Positions 1 to 1,738 of a stretch of 64,000 bases of DNA are shown here, in pieces; within the stretch, counting starts at the first letter, position 1; each line of letters opens with the position of its first letter. The stretch spans positions 1-64,000 of the forward strand of contig BLLL01000005.1 in the NCBI GenBank assembly GCA_013374015.1, read 5' to 3'. The DNA is from Candidatus Desulfovibrio kirbyi. GTDB lineage: Bacteria; Desulfobacterota; Desulfovibrionia; Desulfovibrionales; Desulfovibrionaceae. A program made the position numbers and the translations under genes. A model generated the notes under the pieces. The model ran no database searches. It had not been told where the DNA came from and worked only from the letters and a program-made list of their open reading frames with translations.

Positions 1-1413
1 TCCAGTAGCTGTAGCATTTCCTGTAGTAGTCTCTGCCAAACCACCGAAAACTCGTTTTCCTATGTTACTATCGGATAAAGTGACAGAACCTGAAGCTGTA
101 GCATTGCCGTCAGCAGGTTTTGCATAGACGCCATAAACATCCCCCTCAGCGCTACTGCCGCCGGACAGACTGACAGAGCCTAAGGCTGTAGCATTACCAT
201 CAAGAGTATCTGCATAGGCGCCATAAACATCACCCTCCGCGCTACTGCCGCCGGACAGACTGACAGAGCCTGAGGATATGACGTTGCCGGTGTCTGTGAT
301 TGCATAGCCGCCGTAGATATCGCCGGTTATCGTACTACCGGACAACAGGGTGACAGTAGAGTTAAAGGCTGTGGCATTGCCGTCAAGAGTATCTGCATAG
401 CCACCATAAAGATTCCCAGTTACACTACTCTTATCGGATAAAGTGACAGAACCTGAAGCTGTGGCGTCACCCTTTCCAGTATCAAAAATGTAGGATTTAC
501 CGCCATAAACAGAATCTGTTACACTGCTGCCTTCTAAAGAAACTGTTCCCGTTGCGTTAGTTGTACCCTCACCTCTATAAAGATAAGCATATGCGCCGTT
601 GATTGTTGCGCCTACAGTAGAATCAGTTATTGTAACCGTGCCATTCGCAGTATTGATATCACCGCCATATGCTCTGCTACCATCAATCTTACTGCCTGAT
701 ACTACAGTAACTCTATCTAAAGTAATTATACCTGTTGCTGATGCAGTCAAAATGTCACTCGTATCAGGAGTTCCCGTAAAACTGATATCTGAAATAGCAC
801 CAACAACATTACCTACTTTGCTATCAGTAGCAGTTACCGTACCTGTTGATGTAGCATTACCTTTAATAGCAACTGCATATGAACCGTAGGTAGCACCGTA
901 GGTAACACCGTAGGTAACACCGTAGGTAACACCGTAGGTAACACCGTAGGTAACACCGTAGGTAACACCGTAGGTAACACCGTAGGTAACACCGTAGGTA
1001 ACACCTAAGGTACCAGAAGTTACTGTAGAGTTGCTTAAAGTAACAACACCTGTTGATGCAGCATTACCTATAAACGTGGTAGCGTCGCCTGTTGGTGCCC
1101 CACTCGCGTATACCTGGGCAGAACCACCAAATACGTTACCCGTTATTACAGATTCACCCGTCAAGGTAACAGAAGCCCCTGTAGTTGCAGCATTACCTGC
1201 TCCTGTTTGCGCATACCCTCCCCAAACGTCACCTTCCAGAATAAAAGCTGACCTGGTAACGCTTCCGTCTGCTGATGCAGCATTACCTGTATTAACTATA
1301 TCAGAATGACCAACTTCTGGAGCGGCGTAAACCGCGCTGGTCCAGCAGCATACAAAGGCCAGGACAAGCAACGACAAAAACCGGCAAAAAGTGAACTGCG
1401 GGCAAACAGACAT
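1..1413 (-). CDS. Repeat-rich secreted adhesin / autotransporter-like protein, N-terminal part
   Basis: The frame is open from an ATG at 1413 to the left edge of the window, so the protein is truncated there (471 residues visible). It starts with a signal peptide: a basic/polar head, a hydrophobic LLVLAFVCCW core and an AVYA-AP cleavage site near residue 30. After that it is low-complexity beta-repeat sequence of the type G-N-A-T-A-x-G-S-V-x-L-S-G ... G-D-V-Y-G-x-Y-A, repeating every 30-31 residues, plus a (YGVT)n block. This composition is typical of autotransporter passengers and large adhesins, so a surface role is likely. The C-terminal anchor (beta-barrel or other) lies outside the window, so the secretion type is open. 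An AAGGAA ribosome site precedes the ATG. Confidence 0.8.
   Translation of the reverse strand, partial: MSVCPQFTFCRFLSLLVLAFVCCWTSAVYAAPEVGHSDIVNTGNAASADGSVTRSAFILEGDVWGGYAQTGAGNAATTGASVTLTGESVITGNVFGGSAQVYASGAPTGDATTFIGNAASTGVVTLSNSTVTSGTLGVTYGVTYGVTYGVTYGVTYGVTYGVTYGVTYGVTYGATYGSYAVAIKGNATSTGTVTATDSKVGNVVGAISDISFTGTPDTSDILTASATGIITLDRVTVVSGSKIDGSRAYGGDINTANGTVTITDSTVGATINGAYAYLYRGEGTTNATGTVSLEGSSVTDSVYGGKSYIFDTGKGDATASGSVTLSDKSSVTGNLYGGYADTLDGNATAFNSTVTLLSGSTITGDIYGGYAITDTGNVISSGSVSLSGGSSAEGDVYGAYADTLDGNATALGSVSLSGGSSAEGDVYGVYAKPADGNATASGSVTLSDSNIGKRVFGGLAETTTGNATATG
121..483 (-). repeat. 90-93-bp imperfect tandem repeats within the adhesin gene
   Basis: Successive units begin near 121, 211, 301 and 394. 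The first two are almost identical over the first 60 bases and the later ones are more diverged. Each encodes a 30-31 residue beta-repeat of the adhesin passenger. Confidence 0.75.
883..1014 (-). repeat. 12-bp in-frame minisatellite encoding (YGVT)n
   Basis: Nine exact tandem copies of ACCGTAGGTAAC (plus-strand reading) run from 895 to 1002. One degenerate copy flanks each side (883-894 and 1003-1014). The unit is a multiple of three, so copy-number change by slippage would lengthen or shorten the adhesin without breaking its frame. Confidence 0.95.
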
Positions 1414-1433
1414 GACAGTTCCTTCATGACAAC

Positions 1434-1464
1434 CAGCCCTGCTCCGTTGTACGGCGCGGGGCTG
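1434..1464 (-). promoter_or_regulatory. Hairpin in the adhesin 5' leader
   Basis: CAGCCCTGC and GCGGGGCTG pair over nine positions with one G-T wobble, then a 1x1 mismatch and CCG/CGG around a TTGTA loop. It lies 21 bases upstream of the adhesin ATG and has no U-tract, so it looks like a leader structure more than a terminator. Confidence 0.5.
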
Positions 1465-1496
1465 CTTGTGAAAAGTTTTCAGTAAAACAGCTAGAT

Positions 1497-1516
1497 TGTG
1501 TGTGTGTGTGTGTGTG
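1497..1516 (-). repeat. (CA)10 dinucleotide repeat upstream of the adhesin
   Basis: Ten uninterrupted CA units (TG on the plus strand) lie 84-103 bases upstream of the adhesin start. On the minus strand a TTGCAT hexamer (1518-1523) sits directly before the tract and AATCTA directly after it. A weak promoter could therefore straddle the repeat with 20-bp spacing, but the -10 match is poor. Confidence 0.85.
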
Positions 1517-1591
1517 TATGCAAGAGTCATGCCGAACCTGCCGGATTCAGGTATGATTGCCCCTGTTTTAGGTGAACATCCGGAAATTTCT

Positions 1592-1738
1592 TCAGAACGT
1601 GTCATGATATACCTTCCCGTGGTTATCGTCAGTATTCTCTACCATAAACTCATCACGAAGCCGTTTAATCTCAGTGGCGTTAAGTGTGCGCATTGACTTC
1701 AGCTTGCCGCCAAGTTTGTCTATTCGTGTAAAATCCAA
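1592..1738 (-). CDS. Small unrecognised reading frame
   Basis: A 48-codon frame opens with TTG at 1738, with an internal ATG at 1693, and ends at 1592. It encodes a charged, helix-like peptide (for example KSMRTLNATEIKRLRDEFM). An in-frame stop lies two codons before the proline-alanine run that precedes the TTG, so it cannot extend much further upstream. The composition looks protein-like, but there is no clear ribosome site. It may be the remnant of a decayed gene. I do not recognise a family. Confidence 0.3.
   Translation of the reverse strand: MDFTRIDKLGGKLKSMRTLNATEIKRLRDEFMVENTDDNHGKVYHDTF

Follow-up and report, generated by a model that had tools for sequence, protein, structure and literature searches.

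Repeat-driven phase variation is known mostly as shifts of the reading frame or of promoter spacing. At the nadA promoter of Neisseria meningitidis, which belongs to a surface-protein gene, a nearby simple repeat shifts the spacing of repressor operators and gives graded, still inducible expression states (PMC2791445). ACA motifs and CA-rich leaders also enhance translation in enterobacteria; in gltI, yifK and dppA these are short, fixed motifs close to the ribosome site, within leader RNA that is rich in CA and precedes the Shine-Dalgarno sequence (PMC3879156). CA repeats near the start codon have the same effect in E. coli (PMC9031893, citing Martin-Farmer and Janssen 1999). The sigma-54 regulon of Desulfovibrio vulgaris, with the consensus tGGcacg/tTGCt, has a strong link to cell-exterior genes; CA tracts at its promoters did not come up in text searches of the paper describing it (PMC4641369). 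The locus described here shares features with all these systems: a simple repeat close to the promoter of a gene for a surface protein, the same sigma-54 consensus and a CA-rich leader ahead of the Shine-Dalgarno. Unlike at nadA, however, the tract lies directly behind the sigma-54 -12 element, and, unlike the enterobacterial enhancers, it is a hypervariable repeat at the predicted 5' end of a sigma-54 transcript. No description of CA repeats at sigma-54 promoters was found in the literature searched; the association of a sigma-54 start site with a CA microsatellite is apparently undescribed.

The window, that is the whole stretch of DNA analysed, comprises bases 1-64000 of contig C5 in the 1.61 Mb draft genome of the gut bacterium Candidatus Desulfovibrio kirbyi. 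An autotransporter gene occupies positions 1..1413 on the minus strand with 471 codons present; its ORF continues beyond base 1, where the contig ends, which leaves the gene truncated. The main ATG (1411-1413, minus strand) is preceded by the Shine-Dalgarno AAGGAA (1419..1424, minus strand), which is aligned in the paralogues, and opens onto a probable signal peptide, MSVCPQFTFCRFLSLLVLAFVCCWTSAVYA (1324..1413, minus strand), recognised by inspection of the translation. The in-frame (YGVT)n minisatellite of the original prediction is real: a pure 12-bp array at 883..1005 (TRF: period 12, 10.2 copies, 99% match) is read as (Y)GVT repeats on the minus strand within the long ORF. At least two adjacent YGVT units are found nowhere else in the genome and the paralogues carry just one unit there (..GTYGS..), the expansion being private to the window copy. 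A 90-bp imperfect tandem repeat of 2.2 copies is also present at 81-275, in the passenger region.

Pfam and NCBIfam returned nothing above cut-off for the paralogue proteins, and the family was therefore assigned through relatives and fold. Two paralogues are intact (1593 and 1837 aa), and both end in an autotransporter barrel. In the paralogue L009 the C-terminal domain is modelled by AlphaFold with a pLDDT of 90 as a 12-strand barrel with a preceding helix, the arrangement of type Va autotransporters; its best PDB match is AIDA-I (4mee), with which it shares the fold but only about 15% identity, and EspP and BrkA are among the top matches. PF03797 is matched by 11 of 16 related barrels. The window gene, a putative adhesin, is cut before the barrel; its assignment to a surface protein holds on the evidence of the paralogue and of the relatives. 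The passenger had no match in the searches made, and a protein search of genome contigs for relatives found none.

Upstream of this gene lies a (CA)10 tract preceded by CATA (1497..1516, minus strand), and directly before it a sigma-54 promoter, GGCATGACTCTTGCA (1519..1533, minus strand), with the -24 GG at 1532-1533 and the -12 GC at 1520-1521. The GG-N10-GC element itself, GGCATGACTCTTGC (1520-1533), is near-consensus, and the CA tract starts directly after it. Given the position of the -12 element, about 12 nt before the start according to promoter geometry, transcription is predicted to begin inside the tract (1506..1510, minus strand), which would extend from -8 to +12 relative to that start. 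The placement of the tract at a sigma-54 promoter is well supported. Since both promoter halves are upstream of it, the number of CA units sets the 5' leader and cannot alter promoter spacing. Thus the idea of a promoter-region tract was right in that the repeat adjoins the promoter, but its position is downstream of the promoter elements; of the two effects proposed, a change of leader length is borne out by the great differences in tract length among paralogues, while a change of promoter spacing is not. The proposed pair of slippage-prone tracts is supported as well: one would alter the length of the protein, the other that of the leader. Both are pure repeats in positions relevant for expression, (CA)10 at the predicted start site and the 99% pure 12-bp array in the coding region.

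Between the CA tract and the Shine-Dalgarno, RNAfold predicts a hairpin (1429..1469, minus strand); the first 75 nt after the tract have a folding energy of -26.9 kcal/mol, with a z of -3.1 against mononucleotide shuffles. Rfam detected no family at the CA leaders tested, its only match being a glycine riboswitch elsewhere in locus L058. The genome contains rpoN, identified by a PF04552 match with the RpoN box ARRTVAKYR, together with two PF00158 enhancer-binding proteins carrying GAFTGA/GSFTGA and a third without a recognised motif.

The CA tract is far above chance expectation. Only seven tracts of at least seven CA units exist in the 1.61 Mb, and all seven are found in homologous leaders directly after a sigma-54 promoter; they count 10, 24, 28, 29, 31 and 34 units, plus 15 at a contig end. 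Wherever the downstream gene is assembled, it encodes a signal peptide of one autotransporter family. There are nine leader copies in the genome, one of which, before an autotransporter gene (L012), has lost the CA tract. Another (L013, G000:C3:98000-106500) has the same sigma-54 leader with only two to three CA units near G000:C3:105343 on the minus strand, which precedes, and is in frame with, a glycosyltransferase-like gene. In the alignment of the nine copies the promoter box is almost invariant (2/17 columns vary), compared with 33/67 variable columns in the upstream leader (1534..1618, minus strand), which is conserved and includes an invariant GGAAGGTAT and an ATG at 1603-1605; this region is possibly an activator-binding region or an alternative translation start. 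A conserved leader peptide (PESGRFGMTLA..HTHT), plausible by translation, was rejected: the variable columns are distributed 11/9/13 over the codon positions, with no bias, and the invariant part is the sigma-54 box.

The association extends to the whole genus. CA tracts of eight or more units (at least 15 bp) were searched in 79 genomes with no promoter required, and the 30 tracts with upstream sequence were examined for GG-N10-GC. The element ends 0-11 nt before the tract in 27 of them, is present with one mismatch in two more and is absent in one; the offset between promoter and tract is 0 in 14 cases and -2 in 10. Against a background rate of 0.081 the binomial p is ~1e-26, and counting by lineage, with a grouping of our own, gives 9/12 (p ~3e-8). 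In three loci of genome G009 (L090, L089 and L087) the CA tract is separated from the autotransporter start by a strong terminator-like hairpin with a run of T, which suggests attenuation. As a common mechanism such a hairpin was discarded: it is found in Desulfovibrio leaders and, by eye, is absent from those of Bacteroidota or Treponema.

A scan of 84,980 species genomes with the pattern GGCNYGNNNNTTGC(AC)6 retrieved 94 loci: 41 in Desulfovibrio or other deltaproteobacteria, 27 in Bacteroidota and 10 in spirochaetes, Treponema included, the rest being in betaproteobacteria, planctomycetes and others. By a rough estimate less than one match is expected in random sequence; a few chance matches are possible, because CA repeats are not random. 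The positions left free by the pattern fit the sigma-54 consensus, as with T in 69/78 at one of them, and in 626 kb of these loci no further CA tract reaches 13 nt. About 84 of the 94 loci belong to MAG series that, judging by isolate names, we take to be from termite or wood-cockroach guts. The downstream genes, classified by eye from translations, include those for autotransporters, glycosyltransferases, chemoreceptors, TonB-type receptors, response regulators and lactate permease. A set of 654 MAGs of the termite and wood-cockroach gut type has been described (PMC9137090). No case was found in viral contigs. The flanks of the 94 loci form 39 clusters, none of which mixes phyla; a single mobile element spreading the layout is thus unlikely, this explanation was rejected, and the layout looks convergent.

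Comparison of paralogues and relatives shows that the CA number changes fast over evolutionary time. Among 48 related pairs with upstream flanks more than 80% identical, it differs by at least one unit in 46, with counts taken from draft assemblies; two copies of the same genome with 93% upstream identity, for example, have 10 and 28 units. Across the 94 loci the range is 6.5 to 58.5 units.

The promoter motif, its position, the genus-wide association, the differences in length and the presence of rpoN and activators are directly established, and our preferred explanation, which we consider reasonably probable, is that of an RpoN promoter whose hypervariable 5' (CA)n leader tunes the expression of inducible genes. 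With a -24/-12 element ending exactly where the tract starts, RNA polymerase would open the DNA within the CA repeats, and the transcript would carry an unstructured (CA)n head; the hairpin, the Shine-Dalgarno and the start of the autotransporter gene would follow. Slippage during replication would alter n and leave the promoter untouched, so that the seven promoters with a tract would each have a leader of a different length, with some 6 to 29 CA units transcribed in those copies that were measured. With the enhancer-binding protein active, output would then probably change in a graded manner, either because the CA/ACA-rich leader RNA enhances translation or through altered early elongation or termination; in the window copy, the minisatellite would add variation in protein length. 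If the translation-enhancing role of CA/ACA-rich leaders, known from E. coli and Salmonella, carries over to these transcripts, n could work like a volume control after the activator has fired. We infer the start site, the slippage rate and the effect on expression. One copy counts against this model: in L015 (4520-4760) the longest tract of the genome, with 34 CA units, passes straight into the signal peptide without an ATG or a Shine-Dalgarno in between.

Alternatively, the tracts may be a mutational by-product, in which CA seeds in TTGCACA grow by slippage and are tolerated because no sequence constraint exists downstream of -12. The beginning of the tract inside the -12 element itself and the many kinds of downstream genes are in keeping with this possibility; against it, CACA seeds are ubiquitous, whereas almost all long tracts sit at sigma-54 promoters; such tracts are also maintained in reduced genomes and turn up in several phyla, and we consider this reading unlikely.

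A translational contingency is suggested by a Shine-Dalgarno and an ATG that precede the tract and by frames that differ among copies. Translation would start from the upstream ATG (1603-1605) and proceed through the tract, whose CA number would set the frame and thus an ON/OFF state. Indeed, the Shine-Dalgarno GGAAGG and the ATG are invariant in the nine copies, the window copy and L011 have a leader frame that stays open into the gene whereas it is closed in L009, L010, L014 and L015, the CA-less L012 and the glycosyltransferase copy are both in frame, and in L015, where no start codon follows the tract, a near-perfect sigma-70 promoter is present upstream. Conversely, the ATG lies upstream of the predicted sigma-54 start, the changes are spread evenly over the codon positions, all copies whose sequence extends far enough, apart from L015 and the glycosyltransferase copy, have a second Shine-Dalgarno/ATG after the tract, and the other species conserve the promoter and the tract only, not the leader ORF. 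We consider the contingency explanation unlikely overall, but it may apply to L015.

An effect at the DNA level, with a flexible or Z-forming (CA)n that changes how the promoter melts or responds to supercoiling at the sigma-54 start, fits the finding that the melting region from -11 to +1 almost always lies within the tract; nevertheless, five to six units would suffice there and the tracts reach 58, and this appears very unlikely. Finally, although the tract is close to a promoter, a change in the spacing between promoter elements can practically be dismissed, since both halves of the only strong element precede the tract, and so does the whole of the one sigma-70-like match near the window gene (about 1604-1632), itself within chance.

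Compared with the known cases, the repeat is tied here to one sigma factor and to one position, the predicted transcription start, in several phyla. The recurrence of this promoter-plus-CA-repeat layout suggests a common way to vary regulated gene expression. If n tunes output, as in the leader-tuning model that we favour, a single element would combine RpoN regulation that responds to the environment with random variation, and scanning for the motif would yield the candidate variable genes in many uncultured symbionts. As a more tentative extension, for which the odds seem to us somewhat short of even, convergent sigma-54 promoters with a microsatellite at the start, in several phyla of apparent termite guts, may couple signal-dependent RpoN activation with a stochastic, slippage-driven leader length, and so provide bet-hedging in the amplitude of inducible surface, chemotaxis, transport and regulatory genes. 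Among the loci beyond this genome, the sigma-54/CA layout also precedes MalT/LuxR-like ATPase genes in Candidatus Adiutrix (L139) and in a Desulfovibrio-related genome (L100, G041), and at three loci of unrelated bacteria (L141, L154 and L180) a (TC)n repeat lies directly behind the CA tract at the sigma-54 promoter.
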